Below, piece by piece: positions 3,946-21,529 of a DNA stretch of 64,000 nucleotides. The notes under the pieces were generated by a model. The model was not told where the DNA came from, ran no database searches, and was given only the letters and a program-made list of their open reading frames with translations. Position 1 is the first letter of the stretch. Every line of letters starts with the position of its first letter. The position numbers and the translations under genes were made by a program. This DNA is from Maribacter luteus (GTDB taxonomy: Bacteria; Bacteroidota; Bacteroidia; Flavobacteriales; Flavobacteriaceae), in NCBI RefSeq assembly GCF_009674825.1, contig NZ_WKJH01000021.1, positions 62,001 through 126,000 of the forward strand, given 5' to 3'.

Positions 3946-4401
3946 AATAAATGGTATTTAATTAATGATTTAAAAAAATGGTACTACGGGTCTATAAGGT
4001 GCTAAACTCCATTCCGGGAGTCCAGCTCCAAAAAAGTAAGGTTTACCTCATCGAGTAATTAAAAAGTAAAGAAGAAATGAAGAGCGGAAAATCAAAAATA
4101 AAAATGGATGTCACCCGATTTTTTTGAATAAAATCGGAAGCTTTTAAAGCACAAATCGAACAACCCGAAGATAGGTTTGGCCCAAATGATTTCATACTGT
4201 TGATAAAGCAAGATTAGTATTGCTTTTACACGACAAATGAAATACATTTTTTTGAATTTACACTAATTTTTGGCTTTTTTTTATACATTGGAATATCAAT
4301 GTAAATTATTGTCGTAGAGTGGTTTATTGTCTTTTTTTAATTGCATGTGATTATTATTGGCTTATGCGTTAAAATAGACATTATCTTTGGTTGCTTTTAA
4401 T
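3946..4401. other. Long intergenic stretch with two inverted repeats
   Basis: These 456 bases between divergent genes contain no credible reading frame. Two hairpin-forming repeats are visible: CCGATTTT / AAAATCGG at 4115-4137 and AAAGCAA / TTGCTTT at 4206-4227. A promoter-like sequence lies near the right end (separate entry). I could not recognise a known RNA family. Confidence 0.5.
4357..4389 (+). promoter_or_regulatory. Putative promoter of GWD-like gene
   Basis: TTG at 4357-4359, a 22-base spacer and a perfect TATCTTTG at 4382-4389 match the Bacteroidota consensus. The implied leader before ATG 4402 is very short. Confidence 0.5.
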
Positions 4402-7323
4402 ATGAAATCGATGAAATTAAAGATTGTTTTCTATTTTGTTTTTGTTGTTGGAACCATGAATTCCGTTTTGTCACAAAAAGAGATTCCGGTAAACACCATA
4501 ATCGAGAATGTAGCTCGGTATAAAAATGATTTAAGGGGTCCTTATAAAGATATACGCTGGTTTTGTACCGATGGGAGTATACGGGCACCTAAGGATCCCT
4601 GCCCTGATAATATTGGTCCAGGGGTACAACATGCAAGATACAAAGATGAGGTGGTCGCTCTAGGTAAGGAGCATCATATTTATTTGGGTCAAATATTGGC
4701 ATTTACTGATGTTGAGGCGCTCTGGGACGCCGATTTTAACCATTCCCGATTAATACAGTACCAACTCGAAAAGTACTTAAAATCCGTAGATAATGGATGG
4801 ATACTTCAAAAAGGTCAATATTACAGGGGCTCCGTTCAGGTAGAGGATGAAGAAGCTTGGGGGATTAATTTTTATAAATGGCTTTTAACTAAGGACGAAT
4901 TCTTAAAAGGGAATTATTTTTTAATACGCCAATCGTTAAAGGATATTCCTCATACTGGTGACGATGATGTTGCACAGAAAATGCGAAGCCAGTCCAAAGT
5001 GATTTCAGATGAATTTTTGCCTTTTATGGATTTAAGAGTGAAAATACATGGGCAGCCTGAGTTTTCCGATATAGTAAAGGTTAAAAATTTTCGCCAGAAA
5101 CATGCTGCCGAACTAAGTTCTGACCTCAACAAAAAGATAGATGGGCTGATCGCTACAATGACTGTTTTTTTCAAGCCAGTAGATGTGACCAAACTGTTAC
5201 AGAAAGCCCCTTTGTTAAAGGGGACAACTTTGGGCAATTCCATTGAGCGGTTCATTGGCGATTTTGGTTCCGAGTCGCGTCCATCAATCCTGATTTCCGA
5301 AGCTTCCCAATTGTTGTTAGGGATACGCGAAGGAATTTTAAATGAAAAACGACCATTAGCCAGACTTCAATTGCTTGATGTTTCATTGAAGTTGGAGGAA
5401 ATCATTTTTAAGAACGCACAACAATGGCAGCCCCAAAGTGTAAAGGATCAGTTGGAAAAAATCTGTTATCTCGGATCGGCGTCTACCGGTGCCGGATTTT
5501 TGGAGCTCTGGGAATGGTCGCAGATAGAAAACACATTGAGCCAATCTGAAAACGAATCGATGACCCTTGCCGAATTGACTACATTTATGGAAAAAGCAAG
5601 GGGTGCGGTTGAATGGAGTGCGGCCATGGTCAAAGCCAATTATCAAGAAGTAACCAACACCTATGGGCAATTTGAACCCTTGGCATATGGATTTATAGAT
5701 GATCGCATACGTGGCTCAATTGCTTTACACCTAGGGAAGAGTGTAGGGGAGTTGGGAGATTTTATAGCCCGGGAGTCGGCCCTTACCAATATGGTTTTGG
5801 ATATTCCCAACCAAAGTACCTTACGCGGACTTAATCCAGGGTATGCTTTTGGAGAGCTGGTGGTGGTATCCGGTTCACCGGAAGAGGTGGAAGTGACTTC
5901 GGATAAGATCTATGTTTTTCAAAGATCCCCATCAGACTTGAAACCGGTTGCGGGGATTGCAACTGTTGCTGAGGGGAACATGGTGTCACATGTACAATTA
6001 CTTGCACGAAATTTAGGGATACCCAATGCTGCCCTGTCGGATGATAACTTACAAAGCCTTAAACAATATAATGGCCAACTGGTTTTTTATGCTGTTTCCG
6101 ATAAGGGAAATATCATAATGAAACTGGAAAAAAACATGACGGACCAAGAGCGGGCTCTTTTTGTTAAAAAAGAGCGAAGTGCCGGTAAAATTGAGATACC
6201 TGTTGGGCAGATAAGATTGGACCAGAACCTAATTTTGGATCTTCGTAGTGTTGATGCCAACGATTCCGGTAAGTTGTGTGGACCTAAGGCGGCCAACTTA
6301 GGGCAGTTAAAGAAAATGTTCCCAGATAAGGTAGTTGAAGGCCTGGTTATACCATTTGGGGTATTCAGGGATCATATGGATCAGCAAATGCCGGGGAAAT
6401 CTACATCGTATTGGGCGTTTTTGAATGATATGTTCGCGGAAGCGGAAAGAATGCATGCCAACCAGATACCGGAGTTGGAAGTGGAGAAATATCAATTGGG
6501 ACAATTGGGTATCTTGCGGGAGGCCATTGGTAAAATGCCCCTAAAACAAGACTTCTTAACCCAATTGGAATCAGATTTCAAAAAAGTATTGGGACAACCC
6601 TTAGGCGAAATCCCCGTATTTCTTAGAAGTGATACCAACATGGAAGATCTTAAGGAATTTACGGGTGCGGGGCTTAACCTCACCTTATTCAATGTTCTCG
6701 ACAAGGAAAGGATCTTGAACGGGATAAAGGATGTTTGGGCTTCTCCCTATACCGAGCGCAGCTTTAAATGGCGTCAAAAATATTTATTGAACCCGGAAAA
6801 CGTTTTCCCTTCTATTTTGGTTATCCCTTCGGTTGATGTTGATTATTCGGGAGTGTTGATCACTAAAGGTATTAATTCGGGAAATGATATGGATCTTACC
6901 ATTGCTTTCAGTCGTGGGGCCGGTGGTGCGGTCGATGGCCAATCGGCCGAAACCTATACCTTATTTCATAATGGGGATTATCGTCTTTTGGCCCCTTCGC
7001 GTGAGTTATATTTTAACGGACTTCCAAAGAATGGGGGAACAACTAAGCTTTCGGCCACTTTTGAAAAACCGATTGTCAATGATAACAATAGAAATGACAT
7101 TCAAGAACTGGCACAGGTCATTCGCACGACCATACCCAAAGAAACAAAATCGGATTACAGCGGTGCCTATGATGTGGAATTGGGATTTAAGGATGATAAA
7201 CTTTGGTTGTTCCAAATTCGTCCATTTGTCGAAAACAAAAAGGCATTGAGCTCTGATTACCTGCAATCCATAACTCCGATAATCGATCTAAACAAAGAAG
7301 TTTCACTTTCGAAAAAAATCTAA
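4402..7323 (+). CDS. Exported glucan-water-dikinase-like protein
   Basis: About 973 residues. An N-terminal signal peptide (KIVFYFVFVVGTMNSVLSQ) predicts export. The first ~450 residues are helical and unrecognised. A phosphohistidine (PEP-utiliser mobile) domain follows at about 474-575, with the motif MVSHVQLLARN and His530. The C-terminus (about 625-945) is a PPDK_N-type ATP-grasp: GPKAANLGQL, FLRSDTNMEDL, VWASPYTERSF and a closing LFQIRPF. The order histidine domain then ATP-binding domain, and the SHVxxxARN motif, match plant-type alpha-glucan water dikinases rather than PEP synthase or PPDK. There is no PEP-binding TIM barrel. Known relatives transfer the ATP beta-phosphate to glucan. 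An ATP-using enzyme outside the cytoplasm is odd. ATG 4402 was chosen over upstream TTG; ATG 4411 is also possible. The stop overlaps the next start. Confidence 0.8.
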   Translation: MKSMKLKIVFYFVFVVGTMNSVLSQKEIPVNTIIENVARYKNDLRGPYKDIRWFCTDGSIRAPKDPCPDNIGPGVQHARYKDEVVALGKEHHIYLGQILAFTDVEALWDADFNHSRLIQYQLEKYLKSVDNGWILQKGQYYRGSVQVEDEEAWGINFYKWLLTKDEFLKGNYFLIRQSLKDIPHTGDDDVAQKMRSQSKVISDEFLPFMDLRVKIHGQPEFSDIVKVKNFRQKHAAELSSDLNKKIDGLIATMTVFFKPVDVTKLLQKAPLLKGTTLGNSIERFIGDFGSESRPSILISEASQLLLGIREGILNEKRPLARLQLLDVSLKLEEIIFKNAQQWQPQSVKDQLEKICYLGSASTGAGFLELWEWSQIENTLSQSENESMTLAELTTFMEKARGAVEWSAAMVKANYQEVTNTYGQFEPLAYGFIDDRIRGSIALHLGKSVGELGDFIARESALTNMVLDIPNQSTLRGLNPGYAFGELVVVSGSPEEVEVTSDKIYVFQRSPSDLKPVAGIATVAEGNMVSHVQLLARNLGIPNAALSDDNLQSLKQYNGQLVFYAVSDKGNIIMKLEKNMTDQERALFVKKERSAGKIEIPVGQIRLDQNLILDLRSVDANDSGKLCGPKAANLGQLKKMFPDKVVEGLVIPFGVFRDHMDQQMPGKSTSYWAFLNDMFAEAERMHANQIPELEVEKYQLGQLGILREAIGKMPLKQDFLTQLESDFKKVLGQPLGEIPVFLRSDTNMEDLKEFTGAGLNLTLFNVLDKERILNGIKDVWASPYTERSFKWRQKYLLNPENVFPSILVIPSVDVDYSGVLITKGINSGNDMDLTIAFSRGAGGAVDGQSAETYTLFHNGDYRLLAPSRELYFNGLPKNGGTTKLSATFEKPIVNDNNRNDIQELAQVIRTTIPKETKSDYSGAYDVELGFKDDKLWLFQIRPFVENKKALSSDYLQSITPIIDLNKEVSLSKKI

Positions 7324-8585
7324 TGAAAAAGCCAATATTATATCTGATTTTATTTATTTCCTGTTCAGCATTCACCACATTGCACTATTACCCCATTGAT
7401 GGTTTTGAACATACGGGAATTAAAAGATTGAAACGCTTGGAACTCATAAAAAGTGGTGAGGTCAAAAGTACAACACCGTTACCGGCAGGTGCGTTCAAAA
7501 CTTACGATGAAATTCACCTGAACCTGCTTTCCAGAAACCAGGATAGTGCAACGGCTTTAATGTCGACTGATGCCGATTTTCAAAAAGAAATAAACAATCT
7601 ATTCCGAGGTCTTGATAAAAGTTATTCCCTAACGGTCTTGGATATTTCCGATGTTGACCATATTAGATATGCCGAACGAAATGAAACTGCAGGTTACCAA
7701 CCAGGGAGTGTGGGTAAATTGGCCGTATTGAATGGGTTATTTGTACAACTCGCTAAAATATATCCCGATTCATGGGAAAAGCGTACGCAACTTTTAAGGA
7801 ATAAGTCGGTAAAAGCAGGTGTGTGGGGGTTAACCGATGAACATACCATTCCCATTTACAATATTGAAAAGAATACATTGGTAAAAAGGCAAGTCGTTGC
7901 CAGTGATGTTTTTAATTTGTACGAATGGGTAGATCATATGCTTTCGGTCAGTAATAACGGTGCGGCGAGTATTGTTTGGAGCGAAGTAATGTTGATGGCC
8001 GCTTTCGGTGATAAGTACCCTGATTTAACCCTAGAAGAAAGCGAAGCCTATTTTAAGGGAACCCCAAAAAAGGAATTGACCGATTTAGGGAATGACGTAG
8101 TGAATCTTCCTTTGCGCGATTTGGGGATTTCAGCGGATGAATGGCGATTGGGCAGTTTTTTCACCAGAGGGGCCAATACCTATGTAGGAGACAAAGGGGG
8201 CAGTATAGGTACCCCTTACGGGCTAATGAAATTTTTGGTACAATTAGAGCAAGGAAAAGTTGTTGATGAGAATAGTAGTTTGGAAATGAAACGGTTAATG
8301 TATATGACAGACCGTAGAATACGATATGCCCAAGCACCTGCCTTGAAAGAAGCAGCGGTCTATTTTAAATCGGGAAGCCTTTATAAATGTGACCGAAGTA
8401 AAGGAGAGGAATGTGGAAAATATATGGGGAATGTCTCCAATTACATGAATTCGGTTGCCATAGTTGAACATCCTGACAATTGCAATTATTTAGTTGTGCT
8501 CATGACGAATGTACTTAGGAAAAATTCAGCTTCCGATCATATGTATTTAGCAGGTAATATCGATAAATTGATACGAATGGAGTAA
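7323..8585 (+). CDS. Serine hydrolase, beta-lactamase/PBP fold, coupled to GWD-like gene
   Basis: 420 residues with an N-terminal hydrophobic signal (KPILYLILFISCSAF). All three motifs of penicillin-interacting serine enzymes are seen: SxxK as SVGK at 129-132, SNN at 210-212 and KSG at 349-351. It therefore belongs to the beta-lactamase-like serine hydrolases (class A-like arrangement), acting in the periplasm or at the membrane. The substrate is unknown. It is longer than class A beta-lactamases and has an insertion around 230-290. The start ATG overlaps the upstream TAA (TAATG), so translation is coupled to the GWD-like gene. It converges with the NPT-HEAT gene with only seven bases between stops. 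Confidence 0.85.
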   Translation: MKKPILYLILFISCSAFTTLHYYPIDGFEHTGIKRLKRLELIKSGEVKSTTPLPAGAFKTYDEIHLNLLSRNQDSATALMSTDADFQKEINNLFRGLDKSYSLTVLDISDVDHIRYAERNETAGYQPGSVGKLAVLNGLFVQLAKIYPDSWEKRTQLLRNKSVKAGVWGLTDEHTIPIYNIEKNTLVKRQVVASDVFNLYEWVDHMLSVSNNGAASIVWSEVMLMAAFGDKYPDLTLEESEAYFKGTPKKELTDLGNDVVNLPLRDLGISADEWRLGSFFTRGANTYVGDKGGSIGTPYGLMKFLVQLEQGKVVDENSSLEMKRLMYMTDRRIRYAQAPALKEAAVYFKSGSLYKCDRSKGEECGKYMGNVSNYMNSVAIVEHPDNCNYLVVLMTNVLRKNSASDHMYLAGNIDKLIRME

Positions 8586-8592
8586 GGGTAGA

Positions 8593-11412
8593 CTAAGGTA
8601 AGCCCTGCAGCGCTTCGACCGCATCTTTCGCGAATGTTCGTATTTTAAAATCATCGCTTTTGGTTTCCTCTTCGGCCATAGCCAGGTATTTTTTGTCTTT
8701 TTGGTATTTGATCAGATAAAGGACGGCAAGTTTTATCCTTTGGTCCTTTCCTTGAAGAAGGGATTGAAAACACTCTATTTCCGTAGGTATTTTGTGTTTT
8801 ATTTTCCGTAGCTCTTCCTCAGATGATATTTCCAAGGCAGAATCCTCGATGATGGGCAATAATTTTCTTTTTAATTCACCGGTGAGAAGATTGTCTAAAA
8901 ATTCAATGGCATTGGTTTGCGCTTCTTGTTTATTGCTGAGAAGTCCTTCATAGGCAATTTCAACATCTTTTTGTTGATAGCGTAACCCTAGGAGTTTGAA
9001 TATGCGTTCTAGGCCTGCATCCAATCTCCTTTCCAAAAGGTCTAGCAAGCTGGTACGTGCATCTCTTTCTTGATCGCTGATTTCCTTTCGTGACTTTTTA
9101 CGGTTCCGATAAGAAATTATGATTTGGGTATGCATGGCCGATAAAGTGTGGTGGTACAGTTTACATTCCTCAAAAATTTGTGTAACGACTTTATTTCGGT
9201 TGAACCTTAATTCCGGATTTGTTTTTCTAATGTCACTCAAGGCCCGTATCGTTTCCAACCGTATACCTAAATCGGTATCTTCCAAAAGTTGTAAGAGGGT
9301 ATGAACGCATTCTTGTGTTTTGAATGATTTGATGACCATTGGGATAAAACGGCATGTTTCCAGAGGAGCTGAACGTTGCCTGATTGTGGCTGCAAGCACA
9401 ACCAAAATATTCGATCCATAATTTTTTAATGAATCAATGGTCTGGGTTCGAAATAACTTATTCGGTAAAAAATCTATTAATTCGGGAATGAACGCAGGAT
9501 GCATGGTCTTTCCAGATGCTTCAATCGCTGTTAGTACAATGGTGCTATCCTCATTATTGAAATGATCGGAAATAAAAGGGTAGAATTCTGGAATATTCGA
9601 TGCACCAATGGTTTTAATAAGAATGGTCAAATTGTTTTTATGATTGTCGGCCGACTTAAGTTTAGTAATTTCTTTTTTGATTCTATTCTTTAAATCGTAA
9701 GACTGCTTCAGTGAATTATTGTCGTGCGCCTCCCTAGCGAGACAGTAAAGGGCGGCAGTAGCGATCTGAGGGTTGTCATGGTCCAAATATCGGTCATAGA
9801 CCATTTTACTGTTTTTCTCGGCATGCAATAAAAGGTACTCCAAAGTAGCTAATGTCAAAGCTTCATCATCAGTGTTCAAAAGGTCTGATATTTCGGTTAC
9901 GACTGTTGAACTATTTAAAAAATACAGGTTTTGTATGGCCGCCGTACGTACTTTGGTCGATGGGTGTGAAAGAAGTTCTTGTACATCATTTTCAAATCTT
10001 TTGTCATTGATTTCCATTAATTTTTCAAGCATGAATAGGATTTGTCCTTCTGTTCCGTTCTTGAAAACCGCACGCATACCGGCAATAACGGAGGTACGTT
10101 TCACACGCTTATTGGTTTTTCCGATCCGCTCTGTTATAAGTTCCAAATTGTTTCGAAAAGTCTTGTAATATTCTTTACGTACCTGGAGGATAAAGTAAAG
10201 CCACAATGCCACTAAAACAATGATGAGAATTGCAATATAAAATGAGGGCAGGTCAAGGCCCCGAACAACGAAAATCAGGAGAAACCCTGCAATTCCCGTG
10301 GCAATACTATCGACCACAACATCTATAAAGGATTTGGTTCTGTTTTTTAAATCAAAAGGTAATGGCAGGGTTAAAAGCTCTGTAGCACTTTTGTTCACGG
10401 ATTGTTTCAAGATCCCGTCCATTGCCTTTATGACCACTACCGCGGAAAGTTCCGGAAGAATAATGAAAAGTAGTGATCCACCAAAAATGCCCAATGGCAA
10501 TAAGAGTAGAGAGAAACCGACGCCCCATATACCTACAATACGGTGGGTGAAAAACAATTGGATCACCAAGGAAAGTAGGTTGAAGGTTGAAAACCAAAAA
10601 GCGAAGAAAGATGTAAGTTCATCCGCATCGGTAATCGCTGCGGCCGCAAAATCACTGAACAGATAGTCTACAAGTTTGGCTACAAGAACACTTACTGCAA
10701 TGATCAAGGCTATATAAGTAAGATGTTTGGATTGCCGAATTAGTTTTAAAGGTCTTTCGGGAATTGTGGCCGTCCTTTTTTTTTCTTTGAATTTGCCTAA
10801 CTTTTTAACCCTGGACTTCCAAATCCTGTTGAGTAACGGAATACATGTCAAAAGAAGAAAGGCTGCCAAAAATATTAGATTCTCATTTCCTATTAAAGGG
10901 GCAAGGATAGAGGTTAGGTAACCTCCGAAGATTCCTCCAAGAATCGCCCCGGATCCAATGAAACCGAATAGTCTTTTCGCCTCCCTTACATTATAAACCA
11001 AATTTGCCAATACCCAAAATTGTGATGCGGACAAAACAGCATAAATGGCCACCCAGACATAAAAGAAATACAATAGCCATCCACTCACGATGCCCAATTT
11101 TAATAGAATGCCCAATCCTATTAAGACAGAAACCGAAATAATGAGGGTGAATTTAACTATTTTATGAAGGGAAAATTTGGCCAAGGCTTTTGAATAGAAA
11201 AAAGAGCTTATGACCGCCGCGATAGAAACCCATAGAAAAGCATAAGGCAATTGTTCAACGCCTAATTCCGATAAGAAAAGTGCGTTTACCGTAGGTTTTA
11301 TAATCAGTAAAACGGCTATGATCAAGAATATATAGGATAACATCAATAGGGAAACCTTGAATTCCCCTTCACGTACATCAAATACTTTTTTGATTAATTT
11401 TTGGATTATCAT
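8593..11412 (-). CDS. Nucleotide-carrier-like (Npt) membrane protein fused to HEAT repeats
   Basis: 939 residues. About residues 15-425 contain roughly 12 hydrophobic segments (SLLMLSYIFLIIAVLLIIKP, then YAFLWVSIAAVISSFFYSKA and so on) in the MFS-like arrangement of the Npt1/Npt2 ATP/ADP carrier family. Residues about 440-939 are soluble alpha-helical HEAT-like repeats (for example LLQLLEDTDLGIRLETIRAL). Such fusions occur in free-living bacteria, and their substrate is generally unproven. It shares an operon with the upstream serine hydrolase gene (18-base gap), which suggests an envelope role. Nucleotide transport is family-based inference, since the key basic and acidic substrate residues were not verified. 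Confidence 0.75.
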   Translation of the reverse strand: MIIQKLIKKVFDVREGEFKVSLLMLSYIFLIIAVLLIIKPTVNALFLSELGVEQLPYAFLWVSIAAVISSFFYSKALAKFSLHKIVKFTLIISVSVLIGLGILLKLGIVSGWLLYFFYVWVAIYAVLSASQFWVLANLVYNVREAKRLFGFIGSGAILGGIFGGYLTSILAPLIGNENLIFLAAFLLLTCIPLLNRIWKSRVKKLGKFKEKKRTATIPERPLKLIRQSKHLTYIALIIAVSVLVAKLVDYLFSDFAAAAITDADELTSFFAFWFSTFNLLSLVIQLFFTHRIVGIWGVGFSLLLLPLGIFGGSLLFIILPELSAVVVIKAMDGILKQSVNKSATELLTLPLPFDLKNRTKSFIDVVVDSIATGIAGFLLIFVVRGLDLPSFYIAILIIVLVALWLYFILQVRKEYYKTFRNNLELITERIGKTNKRVKRTSVIAGMRAVFKNGTEGQILFMLEKLMEINDKRFENDVQELLSHPSTKVRTAAIQNLYFLNSSTVVTEISDLLNTDDEALTLATLEYLLLHAEKNSKMVYDRYLDHDNPQIATAALYCLAREAHDNNSLKQSYDLKNRIKKEITKLKSADNHKNNLTILIKTIGASNIPEFYPFISDHFNNEDSTIVLTAIEASGKTMHPAFIPELIDFLPNKLFRTQTIDSLKNYGSNILVVLAATIRQRSAPLETCRFIPMVIKSFKTQECVHTLLQLLEDTDLGIRLETIRALSDIRKTNPELRFNRNKVVTQIFEECKLYHHTLSAMHTQIIISYRNRKKSRKEISDQERDARTSLLDLLERRLDAGLERIFKLLGLRYQQKDVEIAYEGLLSNKQEAQTNAIEFLDNLLTGELKRKLLPIIEDSALEISSEEELRKIKHKIPTEIECFQSLLQGKDQRIKLAVLYLIKYQKDKKYLAMAEEETKSDDFKIRTFAKDAVEALQGLP

Positions 11413-11430
11413 TTGCTAAAGTACCTTGTC

Positions 11431-12348
11431 CTAGTTTTTGGCCAAAGATATACGCTTCATTAATACTTTTTCTACCGGTTTCACCAAATCCCTTATAATT
11501 TGTTCCCCACTTGGATCGTCTACTAGTGCTACTAGTATATAACGCCTGTTCGGATTTTCTCCCCAAACTAATATAGAATCGGAATGATAGGTCTTCCAAG
11601 AACCGGATTTGCGGAACAATCGCGCATTGGGAGCGATCTTATCAAGGGTGTTGACGAACTTATGGTGCAGTTCCGGGTTTTCCATTATCGACAACATTTG
11701 TTTTGAACGGCTTTCATTGACCAATTTTCCGTTTGCCAATAGGTAATAATATCTACAGACTTGTGTTACGGTTGCTGCATGGCTAAGGTTTTTCAAAGGC
11801 TCTCTGTTTGTATCTCCGCCACCACCATAACGTTTGCCTACCCATAGTCCGCCACCTTTGTTCTCATTATAGAATTCGTACTTTGGGTCGGTCATTACCG
11901 CCTCGATTTTGTCATAACCTATGCGGTCTATCATTCTGGTCGATGCGGCATTGTTAGATTTGCTGATCATTAGGCGCATGTCCTTTCTTACTTCTGTGGT
12001 TTCCTTTAATTCCCCTTTTTCAATTGCATCCATCGCGGACAGTAGAATGGCTATTTTGGGTAAGCTGGCTGCATACATCATATGGTTGCCGTTTATTCGG
12101 GCGAACTTCACTTGCTCTGGATCGTGTAGGTCCACGATCCCAACGGCCATTTTCTTTTGGGAAATCAACTCTTTCCATTTGGTATTGGCCAGTAGTTCCT
12201 TTTCCAATTCGGTCTGAAACGAAATTTCAAATAAACTGTTCAAGGGTTTTATTTTCGTATCGTCTATCTTAATGGGTAATTTGTCTTGGGCATGTAAACC
12301 TAAAGCGGCCAGCATTAGAAAAGCGAAAAAAGAAAAGGTGTTCTTCAT
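11431..12348 (-). CDS. Serine hydrolase, class A beta-lactamase-like
   Basis: 305 residues with a clean signal peptide (MKNTFSFFAFLMLAALGLHA, then Q). SxxK is SLPK at 95-98, the second motif is SNN at 131-133, and the third is KSG at 247-249. Size and motif spacing are close to class A beta-lactamases, but I see no convincing omega-loop ExxLN signature, so hydrolysis of beta-lactams is not assured. A cell-wall or other ester/amide substrate is equally possible. It is the first gene of a two-gene minus-strand operon with the NPT-HEAT fusion and has a good -7 element 29 bases upstream. A second serine hydrolase sits in the facing operon. Confidence 0.85.
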   Translation of the reverse strand: MKNTFSFFAFLMLAALGLHAQDKLPIKIDDTKIKPLNSLFEISFQTELEKELLANTKWKELISQKKMAVGIVDLHDPEQVKFARINGNHMMYAASLPKIAILLSAMDAIEKGELKETTEVRKDMRLMISKSNNAASTRMIDRIGYDKIEAVMTDPKYEFYNENKGGGLWVGKRYGGGGDTNREPLKNLSHAATVTQVCRYYYLLANGKLVNESRSKQMLSIMENPELHHKFVNTLDKIAPNARLFRKSGSWKTYHSDSILVWGENPNRRYILVALVDDPSGEQIIRDLVKPVEKVLMKRISLAKN

Positions 12349-12615: not shown

Positions 12616-13677
12616 ATGAACCTTAAAGACGGAGTTAAAACCTCGGAAAATAATGTTTCCGGGGAAGCTAGGGAATTGAGTGCTTTTGTAAAGGACAAGA
12701 CCAAATCTTTGGTCGATCGTCTAGAGTCGTTCGAGGACATCATCAATTTGGAAGTTGGGGATACGGGGCTCAACCGAGCCAAGACCATGGAGCGGGAATT
12801 CGGTATACGGCAATTGTATATTAAATATGAAGGGGATAACCCTACAGGGACCCAAAAAGACCGAATTGCCTTTGCCCAGATTTATGATGCCCTGCGAAGG
12901 GATTTTGGGGTGGTTTCCTTAGCTACATGTGGCAATTATGGGGTGTCGGTGGCCTTGGCGGCGAATTTAGCCGGTGTGGAATGTAAAATCTATATTCCGG
13001 AGACTTACCATACAGACCGTATTGAGGAAATGAAAGCCTTGGGGGCACATATTATAAGATTGCCGGGGAGTTATGAAGATGTGGTGGTTAAAAGTAGCAA
13101 GCTTGCCACGGAAAACGGTTGGTATGATGCTAATCCCGGAGGCTCCAATACACCACTTCAGATTTCGGCCTATTCGCAAATAGCAACGGAAATTTATGAG
13201 GATTTGGGCGATGCCCCCAAGTACTGTGCGGTTCCTGTTTCTAACGGAACATTGTTCGCCGGTATTTATAGGGGGTTCGTAAGTCTATATAAAAGAGGGA
13301 AAACTTCCCAGATACCGAAAATGATAGCGGCTTCATCCAGTCATAAGAATCCGATCGTGCAATCCTTTATTTTAGGATTGGATTACTGTAAGGATTTGAA
13401 TCCGGTAGCCATTAAAGAGACCAAATACAACGAGCCATTGATCAACTGGCATAGTTTTGATGGGGAAGAGGCACTTTATGCGTTGAAAGAATCCAATGGG
13501 GAGGCCTTTAATATCAGTGATAGGAAAATGAAGGAAATGACATCGTTGCTGGCTAAAAAGGAAGGGTTTAAAATATTACCTGCGGCTACGGCCGGACTCA
13601 TAGCACTTTTGGAATTGGACGAAAAAATGAATTTTGAACCAGGCCGTTTTGTGGCGGTTTTAACGGCAAAAAATTAA
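12616..13677 (+). CDS. PLP-dependent enzyme, threonine synthase-like fold
   Basis: 353 residues of fold type II PLP enzymes. The PLP lysine is Lys81 in NPTGTQKDR. The phosphate/substrate loop is ATCGNYGVSVALAA, and a glycine/asparagine stretch PVSNGTLFAGIYRGF binds the cofactor phosphate. Threonine synthase, threonine dehydratase, diaminopropionate ammonia-lyase and cysteate synthase relatives share this pattern, so the reaction is undetermined. It is unlikely to be the biosynthetic ThrC, because no thrA/thrB is nearby and the neighbours are unusual. It is first in a five-gene operon, six bases before the DUF1611 gene. ATG 12616 fits; ATGs at 12602 and 12609 are in other frames and terminate at once. 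Confidence 0.85.
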   Translation: MNLKDGVKTSENNVSGEARELSAFVKDKTKSLVDRLESFEDIINLEVGDTGLNRAKTMEREFGIRQLYIKYEGDNPTGTQKDRIAFAQIYDALRRDFGVVSLATCGNYGVSVALAANLAGVECKIYIPETYHTDRIEEMKALGAHIIRLPGSYEDVVVKSSKLATENGWYDANPGGSNTPLQISAYSQIATEIYEDLGDAPKYCAVPVSNGTLFAGIYRGFVSLYKRGKTSQIPKMIAASSSHKNPIVQSFILGLDYCKDLNPVAIKETKYNEPLINWHSFDGEEALYALKESNGEAFNISDRKMKEMTSLLAKKEGFKILPAATAGLIALLELDEKMNFEPGRFVAVLTAKN

Positions 13678-13683
13678 AAGAAC

Positions 13684-14757
13684 ATGAAAAAAACAATTGA
13701 TGGTAAGGCACTGGTATATTGCGAAGATGCTTTTAATACCCCAAATGGCAAAACTGCCCATGGTTTGGTGCGCTTTACGGAACGTTATGAAGTAATCGGC
13801 GTCTTGGATACAAAATATGCTGGGAAAGATGCTGGTCTTGTTTTAGATGGAAAAGCGAACGGTATTCCCATTTTCGGGAATATGGATGAGGCCGTTGCGG
13901 AACTTTCCACAGATAATACCCCTTTAACACTGGTGATAGGTTTGGCACCTGATGGGGGGCGTTTGCCTTTTGAAGCAAAAGGAACGATTAAAAAGGCATT
14001 ACGAATGGGGTGGAACGTAGATAGCGGATTGCACGATTTTTTGACCAATGACCCCAAAATGGTAGCATTGGCGAAAGAGAAAGGGAGTAGGATCCGTGAT
14101 GTAAGAAAAACTCCGGACAGGGATAAGCTTCATTTTTTCACTGGAGATATTGAAAAGGTCGATTGCTTAAAACTGGCCATCTTGGGTACCGATTCCGCGT
14201 TGGGCAAGCGTACCACGGCATGGATCATTGTACATGCTTTCCGCAATGCAGGCCTCAAGGCAGAAATGGTCGGTACGGGGCAAACAGCGTGGATGCAGGG
14301 TGCTAAGTACAGTATGGTCATGGATAGTTGTATCAACGATTTTGTTTCTGGCGAAATTGAACATGCTGTCGTTAGTGCGTATGAAAATGAAAATCCGGAT
14401 GTGATTGTGATCGAAGGGCAGGGGAGTCTTATGAATCCCGCATATCCTGGCGGATTCGAGATATTGGCTGCCGGGCGTCCCGACTTTGTGATCATGCAAC
14501 ATGCCCCAAAAAGGGTGGAGTACGATGGTTTTCCAGGCTATAAACTGCATTCCCTAAAAGAACAGATCAATGCCGTGGAAGTTATTTCCGGTAAAAAAGT
14601 AATTGCAGTAACCGTTAACCACGAGTTGATGGAAAGTGACGAGGAAATTTTGGAAGCCTGCAAGAACATTACCTTGGAGACCAAATTGCCGGCTTTCGAT
14701 GTGCTTAGGTTCAGTGCGGAACCCCTTATTTCATTATTAAAGGAACATTTAAAATGA
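13684..14757 (+). CDS. DUF1611 protein (DgcN-like), P-loop domain
   Basis: 357 residues. The N-terminal Rossmann-like part (1-150) is followed by a P-loop-type ATP/CoA-binding domain whose loop is GTDSALGKRTT at 168-178. Later motifs are GTGQTAWMQGA and VIVIEGQGSLMNPAYPG. This is the DUF1611 family. To my knowledge a member named DgcN was shown to act as a D-glutamate N-acetyltransferase working with an enolase-superfamily racemase (DgcA). Here an enolase-superfamily epimerase lies three genes downstream, which fits a related pathway. The stop overlaps the start of the PP-loop gene by four bases (ATGA), so the two are probably translationally coupled. Confidence 0.85.
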   Translation: MKKTIDGKALVYCEDAFNTPNGKTAHGLVRFTERYEVIGVLDTKYAGKDAGLVLDGKANGIPIFGNMDEAVAELSTDNTPLTLVIGLAPDGGRLPFEAKGTIKKALRMGWNVDSGLHDFLTNDPKMVALAKEKGSRIRDVRKTPDRDKLHFFTGDIEKVDCLKLAILGTDSALGKRTTAWIIVHAFRNAGLKAEMVGTGQTAWMQGAKYSMVMDSCINDFVSGEIEHAVVSAYENENPDVIVIEGQGSLMNPAYPGGFEILAAGRPDFVIMQHAPKRVEYDGFPGYKLHSLKEQINAVEVISGKKVIAVTVNHELMESDEEILEACKNITLETKLPAFDVLRFSAEPLISLLKEHLK

Positions 14758-16259
14758 CATCGATAAGGTCTCTTGTTGTTTTTCCCAAGCTTTCGGTTCA
14801 TCACATTGCTGTTGAGCCCAAAAGGGTTAAAGCGGTTTATACCCTTGATAAGGAAGATGGTTCCCAAGTTTCGAATGAATTGATTTATTCCTATGACCAA
14901 GTGTATTTTGATAGGAAGAATGCCGAGGACGTTAACTTGGCCTCCATGATGTTGGCACAGGTCGCGTTGAATTATGGACTCTTTTTCGAAACCATTCAAT
15001 TTGATGGTTTGTTCGACGATACCGATAAAAGCTTCCTGAGAGATATGATGGAGAACACCTCTAGGGAAATATTGGTGAATAAATTCTACCATAAAAATGA
15101 ATTTTTAAAACCACCCTTTGATAGTTTGAAGGTCGAGAAATTAAAGCGGTATACCGCTGCAAAAATCGAATTCATAAATACCGAATATGCCCATTTGAAG
15201 GTTGAAGGGAGAATCAATGAAACGGATAAAAATAAATATGCGATTCTAAGTAGTGGGGGCAAGGATAGTCTTTTGACTTACGGTATTATAAAGGAAATCG
15301 GTGAAGCCCATCCAATTTTCATTAATGAATCCGGCAGGCATTGGTTTACCGCAATAAATTCACACAAATACTATAAAGAAATTGAACCCAATACGGCAAA
15401 ACCTTGGTGTAATAGCGATCGTATCTTTAATTGGATGGTGAAACAAATGCCCTTCATCAAAGAGAACTTCCAGAACATCAGGGCCGATATCTATCCCATT
15501 CGTTTATGGACCGTCGCTGTTTTTCTTTTTGGAACGCTCCCAATCGTGCGAAAACGTAATATCGGGAACGTACTTATCGGGAACGAATATGATACTACGG
15601 TCAAGGGAAACCATGAGGGATTATCCCACTATAATTCCCTGTACGATCAAAGTAAATATTTTGACAATGCACTTACGAGATATTATAAAAAGAAGGGTTG
15701 GGACCTGTATCAATATTCAATTTTAAGAAGCACCTCGGAACTATTGATCTTGAAAGTGTTGGTAAAACGATATCCCGAACTGCAGACCCATCAAGTGTCT
15801 TGCCATGCGGCCCATGAGGAAAATGGTAGAATGATGCCCTGCGGTAACTGTGAAAAGTGTAGGCGTATAGTGGGAATGTTGAAGGCATTGGATGAAGATC
15901 CCAAACGATGTGGGTACACTGAGGACCAGATTGAAAAAGGCTTAAAAGCATTGTCGGCCCGGAGTATAAAACAAATCGGTAGCGATGCCTCCCACTTGTA
16001 TTACCTATTGATGGGGAAAGGGTTGGTCGAGAAAACCGACCACACGTTGAAATTAGCCAAGGAGCATCCTGAAATCGTGAAGTTACGCTTTGATAATGAG
16101 CGAAGTATGATGAGTGACCTGCCTGTGTATATCCGAAAACCGCTCTTTAAAATTTTAGCACAATATTCTGATGGGACAGTGCGCTTGCGTGATAGAAAAT
16201 GGCATACCTTCACCTTGCAAAATGAGGATTATGAAACCCCTTATTTTCTAACAAAATAA
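14754..16259 (+). CDS. PP-loop ATPase with QueC-like Cys cluster
   Basis: 501 residues, not a family I can name with certainty. The N-terminal ~155 residues are unique. Then comes a PP-loop signature SSGGKDSLLTYG with SGGKDS at 167-172, as in enzymes that activate a carboxylate or carbonyl as an acyl-adenylate and release PPi. A cysteine cluster C350, C363, C366, C369 (MPCGNCEKCRR) resembles the zinc site of QueC. The MurL family (ATP-dependent epimerase of UDP-MurNAc-L-Ala-L-Glu, giving AMP and PPi) is one candidate relation, given the glutamate-linked neighbours, but I could not check it. There is no signal peptide, so it is cytoplasmic. It overlaps the DUF1611 gene by four bases and lies two bases before the creatininase gene. 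Confidence 0.7.
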   Translation: MTSIRSLVVFPKLSVHHIAVEPKRVKAVYTLDKEDGSQVSNELIYSYDQVYFDRKNAEDVNLASMMLAQVALNYGLFFETIQFDGLFDDTDKSFLRDMMENTSREILVNKFYHKNEFLKPPFDSLKVEKLKRYTAAKIEFINTEYAHLKVEGRINETDKNKYAILSSGGKDSLLTYGIIKEIGEAHPIFINESGRHWFTAINSHKYYKEIEPNTAKPWCNSDRIFNWMVKQMPFIKENFQNIRADIYPIRLWTVAVFLFGTLPIVRKRNIGNVLIGNEYDTTVKGNHEGLSHYNSLYDQSKYFDNALTRYYKKKGWDLYQYSILRSTSELLILKVLVKRYPELQTHQVSCHAAHEENGRMMPCGNCEKCRRIVGMLKALDEDPKRCGYTEDQIEKGLKALSARSIKQIGSDASHLYYLLMGKGLVEKTDHTLKLAKEHPEIVKLRFDNERSMMSDLPVYIRKPLFKILAQYSDGTVRLRDRKWHTFTLQNEDYETPYFLTK

Positions 16260-16261
16260 CA

Positions 16262-17062
16262 ATGAAGACAAATAATAAAAGGTCCGGTTTTTTATGGGAA
16301 GAATTTACCTGGCCAGAAATTGAAGCTTATTTAAAAACGGTTGATACAGTTATCCTACCCTGTGGGGCCATTGAACAACATGGCCCACATTTACCATTGG
16401 ATGTAGATTACTTTGATGCCAAATACATGGCCTTTAAAGTGGCCGAGGCCTGTAAAGACCCTAAACCTTTGGTGTTGCCTCCTATACCCTTTGGCGTATC
16501 TTACCATCATGATGGTTTTAAGGGAACGTTGAGCGTAACAAATGATGCCTTGTCCAAATTCGTTTACGATTTGGGAATGAGTTTGGCGAAGAACGGCGTA
16601 AAGAAGATAATTATTCTAAACGGCCATGGGGATAACGCCCCGACCTTAAGCTATGCCGCCCAAATGATCAACCGCGATGCAAAGATTTTCGTGGGTGTGG
16701 ATACCGGCGAAACCAGTGATGTGGATTTGGCGGGTATGGTAGAGACCCCTAACGATGCCCATGCAGGGGAAATTGAAACAAGTACCACCTTGGCCATACG
16801 TCCAGAAATGGTGCAAATGGATAAAGCCTTGGAATCGACCCTTAAATTCGGTAGCGATTACCTCGATTTTGATGATGACCGTAGTATAAGCTGGTATGTA
16901 CGTACCGATAAGATCTCTGAAAGTGGAATCATGGGAGATGCCACAAAAGCATCAAAGGAGAAAGGAGAGAAAATGTGGGAGGTCATGATCAAGAATATGG
17001 TGCGTTTTGTTGAATCGATCAAGAATACCCCATTGGACGAATTGTATCAAAAAAGATATTGA
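16262..17062 (+). CDS. Creatininase-family amidohydrolase
   Basis: 266 residues with the full metal-binding pattern of the creatininase family: GAIEQHGPHLPLDVD at 35-49 (Glu38, His40, Asp47/49), NGHGDN with His122, and DAHAGEIETS with His167 and Glu170. Family members hydrolyse a cyclic or linear amide bond (creatinine, formamidopyrimidine precursors, the mycofactocin peptide MftE). The substrate here is unknown. In this operon it could deacylate an N-acyl amino acid or cleave a small peptide, which is inference. It is cytoplasmic, with no signal. The stop TGA overlaps the ATG of the epimerase (TGATG), implying coupled expression. Confidence 0.9.
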   Translation: MKTNNKRSGFLWEEFTWPEIEAYLKTVDTVILPCGAIEQHGPHLPLDVDYFDAKYMAFKVAEACKDPKPLVLPPIPFGVSYHHDGFKGTLSVTNDALSKFVYDLGMSLAKNGVKKIIILNGHGDNAPTLSYAAQMINRDAKIFVGVDTGETSDVDLAGMVETPNDAHAGEIETSTTLAIRPEMVQMDKALESTLKFGSDYLDFDDDRSISWYVRTDKISESGIMGDATKASKEKGEKMWEVMIKNMVRFVESIKNTPLDELYQKRY

Positions 17063-18123
17063 TGAGAATCACGGCGGTTTCATACGAACGGTTGGATATT
17101 GATTTATCCGTGCCTTATACCATTGCCTACGAGACCATTAGCAAGACGACCAATTTTATCCTGAAATTGGAGACCGATGGCAAATGGCTGGGCTTTGGTT
17201 GTGCCGCACCCGATTTGGTGGTGACAGGAGAGAACCCTAAGGATGTTGAACATGCCATTACCACCATAATAGCTCCATATTTAGTTGGTAAAGATCCTTT
17301 TTCCTATGCTTTTGTATTGATGGAGTTAAAGCAATTGCTGGGTAAGCGATCTTCTGCATTGGCCATGGTAGATATGGCGTTGTACGATTTGATTTCCAAA
17401 AAGGCCGAAGTGCCTTTGTATAAATTTTTGGGAGGATATCGCAATAGTATTGCCACAAGTATTACCATTGGTATTTTGCCTGTGGAAGAGACCTTAAGGC
17501 ATGCACGGGAATATGTGCAGCAAGGTTTTACAATCTTAAAGGTAAAGGGAGGGGACAACCTTCAGGATGATATTGATAAAATGACCAAAATCCATGAAAA
17601 ATTTCCGCAGATTGCCCTTCGTTTTGATGGGAATCAGGGGTACTCGGTAAAGGATTCGGTCGCTTTTGTAAAGGCCACAAAGGATATAGGAATAGAGATC
17701 TTTGAACAACCTACCAAGCAGGAAGTGGAAGAGCGTTTGGGACAGGTTACAGATCAGGTGCATATTCCTGTGATGGCTGACGAAAGCTTAAAGACTTTGA
17801 CCGACGCTTTTCGTTTGGCACAGAATGAACGGGTGGATATGGTGAATATAAAACTGCAGAAAGTAGGGGGTATTATGGTCGGAACCCACATTGATTCCGT
17901 TGCCAAAGCGGCACGGTTGGAGGCCATGGTCGGGTGTATTGATGAATGTGGACTCGGTATAGCGGCAGGTTTACATTTTGCTTTGTCGAGACAAAATGTG
18001 AAGTATGCGGATCTTGACGGACATTTAGAGCTGGTTTCAGACCCTTATAAGGATATATTTCGCCTTGAGAAAGGGGTGTTGTACCCAACTGATAGACCAG
18101 GTTTAGGTGTGATAGATTTTTAA
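17062..18123 (+). CDS. Dipeptide epimerase, L-Ala-D/L-Glu type
   Basis: 353 residues of the muconate-lactonizing/enolase superfamily. Catalytic positions are all visible: KVK (Lys160, Lys162), Asp189 in RFDGNQ, Glu215 in FEQPT, Asp240 in MADES, Lys264 in NIKLQK and a C-terminal DLD (Asp317, Asp319). From memory of the Bacillus L-Ala-D/L-Glu epimerase, these sit at nearly the same numbers, and its DxD motif binds the free ammonium of the dipeptide. That favours an Ala-Glu-like dipeptide over an N-acetyl amino acid. Such enzymes recycle the D-Glu of murein peptides. ATG 17062 is preferred over TTG 17059. It is last in the operon and converges with a small membrane-protein gene after ten bases. 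Confidence 0.9.
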   Translation: MRITAVSYERLDIDLSVPYTIAYETISKTTNFILKLETDGKWLGFGCAAPDLVVTGENPKDVEHAITTIIAPYLVGKDPFSYAFVLMELKQLLGKRSSALAMVDMALYDLISKKAEVPLYKFLGGYRNSIATSITIGILPVEETLRHAREYVQQGFTILKVKGGDNLQDDIDKMTKIHEKFPQIALRFDGNQGYSVKDSVAFVKATKDIGIEIFEQPTKQEVEERLGQVTDQVHIPVMADESLKTLTDAFRLAQNERVDMVNIKLQKVGGIMVGTHIDSVAKAARLEAMVGCIDECGLGIAAGLHFALSRQNVKYADLDGHLELVSDPYKDIFRLEKGVLYPTDRPGLGVIDF

Positions 18124-20335: not shown

Positions 20336-21529
20336 ATGGTCAAGGTAGCTACAGGGTTGGATGTTTTATGTAATGATTTCCATCTTCAAAAGGAATTCAA
20401 AGGAAACGTAGCGTTACTTTGTCATAATGCCTCGGTCGACAAGGGTTTTGTACCTGCGGCAGTACGCTTTAAAGAATTGTTCGGATCCAGGTTCATTAAG
20501 CTATTCGGTCCGCAACATGGCTTTTCTACGGATGCACAGGATAATATGATCGAAACGGACCACTATGTACACCCACATTTTAAGTTTCCGGTATATTCAC
20601 TTTACTCGGAAACTCGTGTCCCAACCGATGAAATGCTCAATGGTATAGATCATTTTTTTGTAGACCTACAAGATGTGGGTTGCCGTATGTATACCTACAT
20701 ATACTCTTTGACGCTTTTATTGGAAAAGTGTATCGACAAGGATATTGAGGTCATTGTTTTGGATCGGCCAAATCCATTGAACGGCATAACTTTGGAAGGC
20801 AATGTTCTGGATCCCAAATACGCTTCCTTCATTGGCCGGCACCCTATTCCGGTACGGCATGGAATGACCATTGGGGAAGTTGGGCTAATGCATCAAAAGT
20901 ACTGGGCCGATAAACCAATGAATTATAGAGTGATAAAAATGCGTAACTGGGAACGGAACATGTATTTTGAAGATACGGGTTTATCGTGGTTATTGCCTTC
21001 ACCAAATTTATCCAGATATGAAAGTGCCATGACTTTTCCTGGGATTGTCCTTTTTGAGGGTACCCAACTTAGCGAGGGAAGGGGGACTACACAATCCTTG
21101 GAGTTGGTGGGTCATCCATCAATAGAACCTTTTGGTTGGTATGATCGGCATTTGAAGCAAGCTTTGGAAAAGTCGGGATTAAAAGGTGTTGCCATAAGAC
21201 CGATAACCTTTTTGCCGACATTCAATAAACATGCTGATAGCGTCTGTGGTGGATTTCAAATTCATGTAACCGATAGAAACGTTTTTCAGCCTTGGCGTGT
21301 TGGTCAATGGTTGTTGCGGGAGTTATACCATCTTATGGAAGGGGATTTTAAATGGTTGCAACCACCGTACGAATATGATTATACGAATATGCCCATTGAT
21401 ATCATTAACGGGACGGATAGATTAAGGTGTTGGGTTGAGCAGAAAGGAAGCCTGCAAATGCTAGGGTCCTTGGAAAATTACAGTGACTACGAACCCAAGT
21501 TTCGTGCCATTCAAATCTATTGGTCGTAA
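20336..21529 (+). CDS. namZ: Exo-beta-N-acetylmuramidase NamZ-like (DUF1343)
   Basis: 397 residues of the DUF1343 family, now known as NamZ, which releases terminal MurNAc from the non-reducing end of murein fragments. Family features visible are ATGLDVLC and NVALLCHNAS near the start, LFGPQHGF, the DLQDVGCRMYTYIYSL segment, VLDRPNPLNG and PSPNLSRYESA. Characterised members are exported, but this one starts MVKVATGLDV directly with no signal peptide, suggesting a cytoplasmic recycling role or a mis-set start. No in-frame upstream start with a hydrophobic segment is apparent. It is encoded alone, downstream of a divergent ComEC-like gene and convergent with ftsE. Confidence 0.88.
   Translation: MVKVATGLDVLCNDFHLQKEFKGNVALLCHNASVDKGFVPAAVRFKELFGSRFIKLFGPQHGFSTDAQDNMIETDHYVHPHFKFPVYSLYSETRVPTDEMLNGIDHFFVDLQDVGCRMYTYIYSLTLLLEKCIDKDIEVIVLDRPNPLNGITLEGNVLDPKYASFIGRHPIPVRHGMTIGEVGLMHQKYWADKPMNYRVIKMRNWERNMYFEDTGLSWLLPSPNLSRYESAMTFPGIVLFEGTQLSEGRGTTQSLELVGHPSIEPFGWYDRHLKQALEKSGLKGVAIRPITFLPTFNKHADSVCGGFQIHVTDRNVFQPWRVGQWLLRELYHLMEGDFKWLQPPYEYDYTNMPIDIINGTDRLRCWVEQKGSLQMLGSLENYSDYEPKFRAIQIYWS

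Follow-up and report, generated by a model that had tools for sequence, protein, structure and literature searches.

A conserved five-gene enzyme set of Maribacter luteus with a probable role in attaching a group to an amino acid, inverting its handedness and releasing the product

A conserved set of five adjacent genes

Within a 64,000-nucleotide stretch of the Maribacter luteus genome (contig NZ_WKJH01000021.1, positions 62,001 to 126,000; the whole stretch is called the window below), five adjacent genes encode a pyridoxal phosphate (PLP) enzyme, a DUF1611 protein, a PP-loop ATPase, a creatininase-family hydrolase and an enolase-fold epimerase. These five genes are a real, conserved enzyme set and not a chance group. 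Together, their products probably attach a group to an amino acid, invert its handedness and release the product. The component families are known, while the combination, a fusion of two members and a switch at a specificity residue of the epimerase are new. The gene families, the intact motifs, the nested occurrence, the fusion and this switch are all read from the sequences. The initial annotation of this DNA had proposed a D-glutamate or Ala-Glu compound as the substrate, which the residue at the specificity position makes unlikely.

All five open reading frames lie on the plus strand (12616-18123) in the order given above, and the tight junctions claimed initially could be read in the sequence. 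The PLP enzyme gene ends at 13677 and the DUF1611 gene starts at 13684, leaving a gap of six bases; the DUF1611 and PP-loop genes share an ATGA overlap at 14754-14757; two bases separate the end of the PP-loop gene (16259) from the start of the creatininase gene (16262); and the creatininase and epimerase genes meet in a TGATG overlap, with the stop codon at 17060-17062 and the ATG at 17062. Pfam recognised four of the five products, in agreement with the family names given before, and the exception, the PP-loop protein, was identified by its SGGKDS loop and its fold. By alignment, none of the five proteins has lost its catalytic motifs. Neither promoter-like sites (19, against 14.2 ± 4.0 by chance) nor terminator-like sites (4, against 6.1 ± 2.9) were clearly above chance.

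The distribution of the genes was determined in a sample of 296 Bacteroidota genomes, which was searched four times (orthologues of the PLP enzyme and the creatininase-family protein at E ≤ 1e-60); each count below is a number of genomes and should not be read as a number of independent events. DUF1611 was found above its cut-off in 58 genomes. An orthologue of the PLP enzyme was present in 16 and by coordinates adjoined a DUF1611 gene in every one of them. The PP-loop protein was present in seven, spread over five genera and three families, and exactly these seven genomes, all of them among the 16 with the PLP enzyme, carry the creatininase orthologue. With 15 named loci from outside the sample included, 21 PP-loop loci besides the window were available (loci and genomes are cited by our L and G numbers), and the nearest PP-loop relatives, in Maribacter polysiphoniae and M. 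aquimaris, are 94% identical.

All five orthologues were found together in 17 of these 21 loci, contiguously in 15, while about 8.2 kb of inserted genes interrupt the set in the other two (L023 and L026). As for the remainder, no epimerase lies inside the fetched 20 kb of L015; the contig ends within the set in L025 and L028, and the PP-loop frame of L028 stops aligning near residue 475; and the 18.7 kb contig of L027 holds only the PP-loop and creatininase orthologues, beside an enolase-fold gene resembling those of sugar-acid dehydratases. Across the 18 complete sets, the pairwise divergences of the five proteins are correlated (r = 0.82-0.97, the pairs not being independent), and the gene order is kept while the flanks vary between genera. 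The co-occurrence search that the initial annotation had proposed thus speaks for one coupled unit, as do the order and the fusion described below. A chance grouping of unrelated genes, which it had named as one refuting outcome, is contradicted by the nested co-occurrence and adjacency, the fusion, the correlated divergence and the constant order despite differing flanks; we regard it as already refuted and give it practically no credence. The set was also sought outside the phylum: the PP-loop protein had no match in 72,556 plasmid records, and the 15 matches listed there for each of the PLP enzyme and the creatininase-family protein were relatives at only 28-35%, with no record above 60%.

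A three-gene core and an optional module

The genes occur in nested layers, in which DUF1611 with an enolase-fold epimerase is joined by the PLP enzyme and then by the PP-loop and creatininase genes. To describe these layers, 36 further DUF1611 loci, a part of those in the 58 DUF1611 genomes, were fetched, and an enolase-fold epimerase stands beside DUF1611 in 24 of them. Six of the nine genomes with the PLP enzyme but without the PP-loop protein were read (G038, G100 and G163 were left out). They gave six three-gene sets of PLP enzyme, DUF1611 and epimerase (L072-L075, L099 and L100), and the PP-loop protein was not found in any of these six genomes. In a DUF1611 tree from a quick search only, the PLP-linked rows cluster with a support of 88 in the Shimodaira-Hasegawa-like approximate likelihood ratio test (below the threshold of 95), and among them the PP-loop module must have been gained or lost three times. 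L015, whose DUF1611 and PLP genes tblastn shows behind antisense frames, is absent from this tree. In the epimerase alignment described below, L090 was counted with the rows not linked to the PLP enzyme, its nearby PLP protein being unrelated (25% identity).

The core consists of three genes, the PLP enzyme included, and the PP-loop and creatininase genes are an optional, sometimes fused module; the initial annotation had missed all three points. In four of the 21 other loci (L012-L015, from four genomes of three genera and two families), the two form one open frame of 781-802 codons. They are separate genes in the remaining loci that cover both, including the distant Melioribacteraceae locus L029.

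The proposed specificity residue of the epimerase

Among solved structures, the epimerase is closest to the L-Ala-D/L-Glu epimerase YkfB (1jpm/1tkk, E 1.8e-65). With YkfB and the dipeptide epimerases 3rit and 3jva, it has in common the fold family, the KxK lysines, the metal ligands and the DxD motif, and the catalytic residues K161/K163, D190, E216, D241 and K265 are kept (residue numbers count from an upstream TTG at 17059, which gives 354 amino acids). It differs from YkfB at Arg24, which is reported from structure work to contact the Glu side chain and which is replaced by Glu (E25) in the cassette. This Glu is present in 18 of 18 five-gene rows (17 loci and the window) and in five of six three-gene rows, L072 having Gln. 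Among 21 other rows it occurs once, in L082, whose DUF1611 protein falls close to the PLP-linked rows in the DUF1611 tree; ten of these rows have Lys or Arg and L096 has Thr. A second acid, D295, is kept in every five- or three-gene row covering the position (L012 is truncated) and in most two-gene relatives. The corresponding residue is Ile in YkfB and Asp in 3rit, presumably a cationic-dipeptide epimerase.

Given the charge inversion at the Arg24 position, D-Glu or Ala-Glu is an unlikely substrate and a basic or hydroxylated residue is favoured. Both models for Ala-Glu epimerases missed their cut-offs (NF041118, 237 of 500 bits; PRK15129, 87 of 343). An argument from the DxD motif that would prove a dipeptide substrate was considered and given up, the DgcA-like epimerase of L016 having the motif too.

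The DUF1611 protein and its DgcN/DgcA relatives

The DUF1611 protein matches both DUF1611_N and DUF1611_C above the Pfam cut-offs and is thus a two-domain protein, in which the loop residues G168, G174, K175, T177 and T178 are invariant in 27 of 27 rows. Its best solved relatives are 2g0t, 2obn and 7xrj, the last of which we take to be DgcN. DgcN reportedly acylates D-Glu within the DgcN/DgcA pathway of D-glutamate catabolism, reported by Yu et al. (ISME J, 2023). This pathway is named in PMC12363236, which cites that study, and in PMC10845958.

The cassette resembles DgcN/DgcA in having a DUF1611 protein beside an enolase-fold racemase, with a probable acylate-then-invert logic, and differs by the Glu at the side-chain position and by three extra enzymes. 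The curated models of DgcN (NF041892, 150 of 480 bits) and DgcA (NF042940, 136 of 400) both missed their cut-offs. A second DUF1611 and epimerase pair in the same genome scored higher (244 bits for DgcN and 176 for DgcA), also below the cut-offs, and to this more DgcN/DgcA-like pair the cassette is about 28% (DUF1611) and 31% (epimerase) identical. Taken with the Glu in all 18 five-gene epimerases and the missed Ala-Glu epimerase cut-offs, these scores speak against the D-glutamate or Ala-Glu substrate of the initial annotation. A gene for an M14-type carboxypeptidase lies two genes upstream of this second pair (L016, 8234-10318; G000:C21).

On Vibrio and roseobacter plasmids, relatives of the DUF1611 protein (41-43% identical) overlap a PLP racemase gene by four bases in five of five loci read (L032, L033, L034, L112 and L113; overlaps from annotated coordinates). 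These racemases were annotated as alanine/ornithine racemase family in four loci and alanine racemase in one, and the one that was scored resembles ornithine racemase Orr, below the cut-off. In two of two haloarchaeal plasmid loci read, the partner is again an enolase-fold epimerase. Since the plasmid partner is a PLP racemase, the partners of DUF1611 are not tied to glutamate, though their substrate is not named thereby. Racemase partners of different folds are as would be expected for an acylation and inversion pair. We met no description of this plasmid pairing. D-aminoacylase-like genes stand near DUF1611 and epimerase pairs in three Bacteroidota loci (L083, L093 and L097) and one haloarchaeon (L035), which would fit an N-acyl-D-amino-acid theme.

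The PP-loop protein, the creatininase-family hydrolase and the PLP enzyme

The PP-loop protein matched no Pfam family at E ≤ 0.001, and none of 15 PP-loop members matched the QueC model (PF06508) at E ≤ 1. An AlphaFold model was obtained with a predicted local distance difference test (pLDDT) score of 79 and a predicted template modelling (TM) score of 0.81, residues 278-298 being poor. In Foldseek, the middle part best matched QueC (2pg3 and 3bl5) and Cap9 (9nto) with probability 1.00 and E from 8e-4 to 1e-2, below 0.001 for 2pg3 only. The TM scores by query are low (0.25-0.31) because only one part of the chain matches, and by target they reach 0.61-0.70 for 2pg3 and 3bl5. The accessible part of a QueC-family survey (PMC13329287) gives an SGGxDS loop and a Cys4 zinc motif, C(x)8CxxCxxC, as QueC-type motifs. 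In the cassette family, SGGKDS is kept in 21 of 22 rows, one row having SGGKES, and the four Cys of C(x)12CxxCxxC are invariant in 22 of 22. The predicted structure thus points to a QueC-type fold, and the loop, the zinc-type motif and the core fold are common to the QueC superfamily (QueC, QatC, Cap9). The protein differs from that superfamily in the spacing of the Cys motif, the extra N-terminal segment of about 157 residues, the lack of a PF06508 match and the creatininase partner. When folded alone, the N-terminal domain (pLDDT 87) found no convincing structural match, the best TM score by query being 0.35, to a designed protein.

The NCBIfam model of MurL (NF041275) was matched by 14 of the 15 PP-loop members (best E 1.4e-5); no other NCBIfam model had matches in more than one of them. 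For the window protein the match covers about 100 residues and scores 20.2 of the 700 bits of the missed cut-off. By this similarity the protein appears to be a very distant relative of MurL. It differs from MurL in its creatininase partner, and the MurD2 partner expected of MurL has no counterpart, no Mur ligase being among the five genes. A true MurL was sought in 198 genomes, and the sole two matches were PP-loop proteins of the cassette.

Creatininase itself is a ring-opening amidohydrolase. The hydrolase of the cassette matches the creatininase family (creatininase, MftE and IolN; PF02633) over its full length and has its metal-site motifs in common with it. Residues E38, H40, D49, H122 and H167, which presumably include the metal ligands, are invariant in 21 of 21 rows and D124 in 20; one metal-site position holds Asp here and Glu in creatininase. 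The cut-offs of creatininase proper (TIGR04448, 116 of 235 bits), MftE (140 of 172) and IolN (91 of 245) were all missed, and the cassette member also differs from the family in being fused to the PP-loop enzyme in some genomes.

In the PLP enzyme, the motif NPTGTQKDR aligns with NPTGSFKDR of threonine synthase, and the PLP lysine K81 is kept in 24 of 27 rows, that is, in every row with residues there, the other three being partial and gapped. The enzyme passed the cut-off of one threonine synthase model (NF004996, 399.7 against 266) and missed that of the other (TIGR00260 thrC, 89 against 167). Since the genome has its own thrC, above the cut-off, on another contig and ilvA also elsewhere, the cassette enzyme is presumed to be specialised.

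Proposed pathway and alternative explanations

The explanation that we prefer as a whole, though tentatively and at somewhat less than even confidence, is that of a metabolic cassette, mobile by horizontal transfer, whose five enzymes invert the stereochemistry of a non-acidic amino-acid residue in acylated form and then free the product. For every substrate, the order of the steps, the catabolic direction and the part of the PLP enzyme, the following is what we infer. The DUF1611 protein would transfer an acyl group to an amino acid, in the way reported for the related DgcN with D-Glu, and the enolase-fold enzyme would epimerise the C-alpha of the acylated residue, which the Glu in place of the Arg of Ala-Glu epimerase suggests to be basic or hydroxylated. 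The PP-loop protein may then adenylate a carboxylate, as proposed for QueC and MurL, so that ATP drives either a ligation or an epimerisation that runs one way, and the creatininase-family hydrolase may cleave the resulting amide or open an activated ring. Finally, the threonine-synthase-like PLP enzyme could carry out a beta- or gamma-elimination or a replacement on the freed amino acid. By analogy with DgcN/DgcA and MurL, acylation, inversion, ATP-driven activation and hydrolysis would be the best-supported picture. We favour a catabolic over a biosynthetic role chiefly on account of the catabolic precedent for the core pair.

Several observations weigh against this explanation. No epimerase match was found in the fetched stretch of 12 of the 36 further DUF1611 loci. 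The PP-loop and creatininase genes are not essential to the core reaction, because three-gene sets exist without them, and the MurL similarity is weak and limited to about 100 residues. The Glu at the specificity position is only loosely tied to the PLP enzyme, as three-gene L072 has Gln and two-gene L082 has Glu. The roles of YkfB Arg24 and of the DxD motif are taken over from the YkfB structure work, and dipeptide and N-acyl amino-acid substrates cannot be told apart by the motif, because DgcA-like L016 carries it. Furthermore, no transporter or regulator is constantly linked to the set across the 21 PP-loop loci, so that the catabolic direction stays a matter of judgement.

The lack of a constantly linked transporter also suits a biosynthetic cassette with an intracellular or exported small metabolite as product, a reading that we hold to be possible but rather doubtful. 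The PLP enzyme would then make an unusual amino acid, such as a diamino acid, the PP-loop protein would ligate it into a dipeptide-like product, the epimerase would invert one centre, and the creatininase-family protein would trim a blocking group like MftE in mycofactocin. The patchy, mobile distribution (seven of 296 genomes, and three changes of the PP-loop module on the tree) and the acidic pocket residues, which suit a basic side chain, are in its favour. So are two relatives as described in the accessible parts of the literature: Cap9/QatC, which join deazaguanine to protein, and the creatininase homologue MftE, which cleaves a peptide (PMC10885120). Such a product would have to be reconciled with a core related to the described catabolic pair DgcN/DgcA, with permease-family genes at L014 and L019 and with annotated neighbours (only some are annotated) that include no carrier protein, exporter or oxygenase. 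The salvage of D-glutamate or L-Ala-D-Glu from peptidoglycan, which is the version of the initial annotation, we consider improbable. The Ala-Glu epimerase as best solved relative, the DgcN family membership of DUF1611, a NamZ muramidase and beta-lactamase-fold hydrolases nearby in the window, and one haloarchaeal DUF1611 set adjoining NlpC/P60 and DacB genes would all agree with it. It is contradicted by the Arg24 to Glu change in 18 of 18 five-gene rows, by three widely missed NCBIfam cut-offs and by the second pair nearer to DgcN/DgcA in the same genome, and NamZ is near the set in Maribacter loci only and not in all of these (absent from L019).

As a variant of the third and fourth steps, the PP-loop protein might adenylate an N-acyl residue to form an oxazolone-like ring that loses its chirality, which the creatininase-family protein would open stereospecifically, leaving a second centre or the reverse direction to the enolase-fold enzyme. 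The PP-loop and creatininase fusion in four of 21 other loci and the ring-opening activity of creatininase would agree with it, and MurL, whose model is the one NCBIfam model with matches in more than one of the 15 members, offers a parallel. According to the accessible parts of two reviews (PMC8788868 and PMC5808125), MurL uses ATP, yields AMP and is a one-way epimerase whose mechanism is called unclear; the same parts mention no creatininase partner. With a weak MurL similarity, no substrate, and a second epimerase in the same set that would be partly redundant, this ATP-driven inversion is an unlikely variant. A wider proposal is offered as speculation with the odds well against it. In it, the PP-loop and creatininase-family pair would be a new ATP-powered machine for stereo-inversion or ligation, built on the QueC/MurL superfold and in some genomes fused to the ring-opening amidohydrolase. 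It would have been placed on a DgcN/DgcA-like core whose preference moved from acidic residues to basic or hydroxylated ones at about the time when the threonine-synthase-like enzyme was gained, and bacteria would thereby have a new means of turning over, or making, a D-amino-acid compound.

As guesses at the family level, the DgcN-like acyl step, the ATP activation, the amidohydrolase and the epimerase of the initial annotation have stood. It had also known of no pathway with this combination, and in open-licence PubMed Central papers (subscription papers lay outside the search) we found no description of the five-gene set; among the papers listed, only two name DUF1611, and by word search, creatininase, epimerase and MurL are absent from the QueC-family survey (PMC13329287). 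To our knowledge, few routes for D-amino acids other than the common ones have been elucidated. Being conserved and showing its specificity switch in the sequences, the cassette offers a directly testable way into one more. D-amino acids are an important part of the recalcitrant dissolved organic matter in the sea, as stated in the accessible part of the literature. The PP-loop and creatininase fusion would widen the known chemistry of the QueC superfold and might be relevant to the mechanism of MurL, which both reviews call unclear.

Table 1 Features of the five-gene set in the window, and sigma-70-family genes at three other loci
Feature	Position	Strand	Basis
PLP enzyme, PALP fold, threonine-synthase-like, 353 amino acids	12616..13677	+	Pfam PALP, 199 bits
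PLP lysine K81, codon	12856-12858	+	alignment to Thr synthase
DUF1611 protein, DgcN relative, 357 amino acids	13684..14757	+	Pfam DUF1611_C 209, DUF1611_N 84.6 bits
Walker-A type loop GTDSALGKRTT	14185-14217	+	invariant loop residues in DUF1611 alignment
PP-loop ATPase, 501 amino acids	14754..16259	+	SGGKDS loop, fold; no Pfam
N-terminal domain of PP-loop protein, about residues 1-157	14754-15227	+	predicted structure
SSGGKDS loop in QueC-like PP-loop domain	15249-15269	+	motif
Zinc-type motif C350-x12-CGxCxxC369	15801-15860	+	four Cys invariant
Creatininase-family metal amidohydrolase, 266 amino acids	16262..17062	+	Pfam creatininase, 236.7 bits
EQHGPH motif	16373-16390	+	creatininase metal-site alignment
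Enolase-superfamily dipeptide-epimerase-like protein, 353 amino acids from ATG	17062..18123	+	Pfam MR_MLE_C 147, MR_MLE_N 51 bits
E25 codon (E24 from ATG), YkfB Arg24 position, proposed specificity residue	17131..17133	+	alignment to 1jpm
D295 codon (GC-x-D-E), second conserved acid near expected side-chain pocket	17941..17943	+	alignment
Sigma-70-family factor gene, L022	5233-5847		annotation
Sigma-70-family factor gene, L024	6963-7586		annotation
Sigma-70-family factor gene, L031	6976-7596		annotation

Neighbouring genes

An amino-acid-permease-family gene stands beside the cassette in two of the 21 loci, upstream in L014 (4320-6542) and downstream in L019 (14236-16653). The two permeases are 50% identical and come from two unrelated genomes, which may be a weak hint at uptake. 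In three of the 21 loci (Table 1), the PLP enzyme gene is preceded by a sigma-70-family factor gene at a distance of up to about 2.4 kb. A gene for a GNAT and CN-hydrolase fusion was considered as a sixth member and rejected as a loose association. It lies within 10 kb in five of the 21 PP-loop loci (L013, L023, L024, L026 and L029), is common in the sample (87 of 296 genomes) and, at the same cut-off, was near the cassette only in G116 among ten sampled PLP-enzyme genomes having the fusion.

Near the cassette, the window holds a gene for a NamZ-type exo-beta-N-acetylmuramidase (Pfam NamZ_N and NamZ_C; 20336-21529). NamZ is likewise near the cassette in three of the four other Maribacter loci (L017, L018 and L030, not L019) and in none of the other loci examined. 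Just upstream of the cassette (4387-12348) lies a block encoding a 978-amino-acid PPDK_N ATP-binding protein, a beta-lactamase-fold protein, a 939-amino-acid HEAT-repeat protein and a second beta-lactamase-fold protein. This block is not beside the cassette in L018 and L030, stands beside it in M. polysiphoniae (L017) and, without the HEAT protein, in L019, and is found inside the cassette, between the DUF1611 and PP-loop genes, in Eudoraea and Muriicola (L023, L026 and L028).

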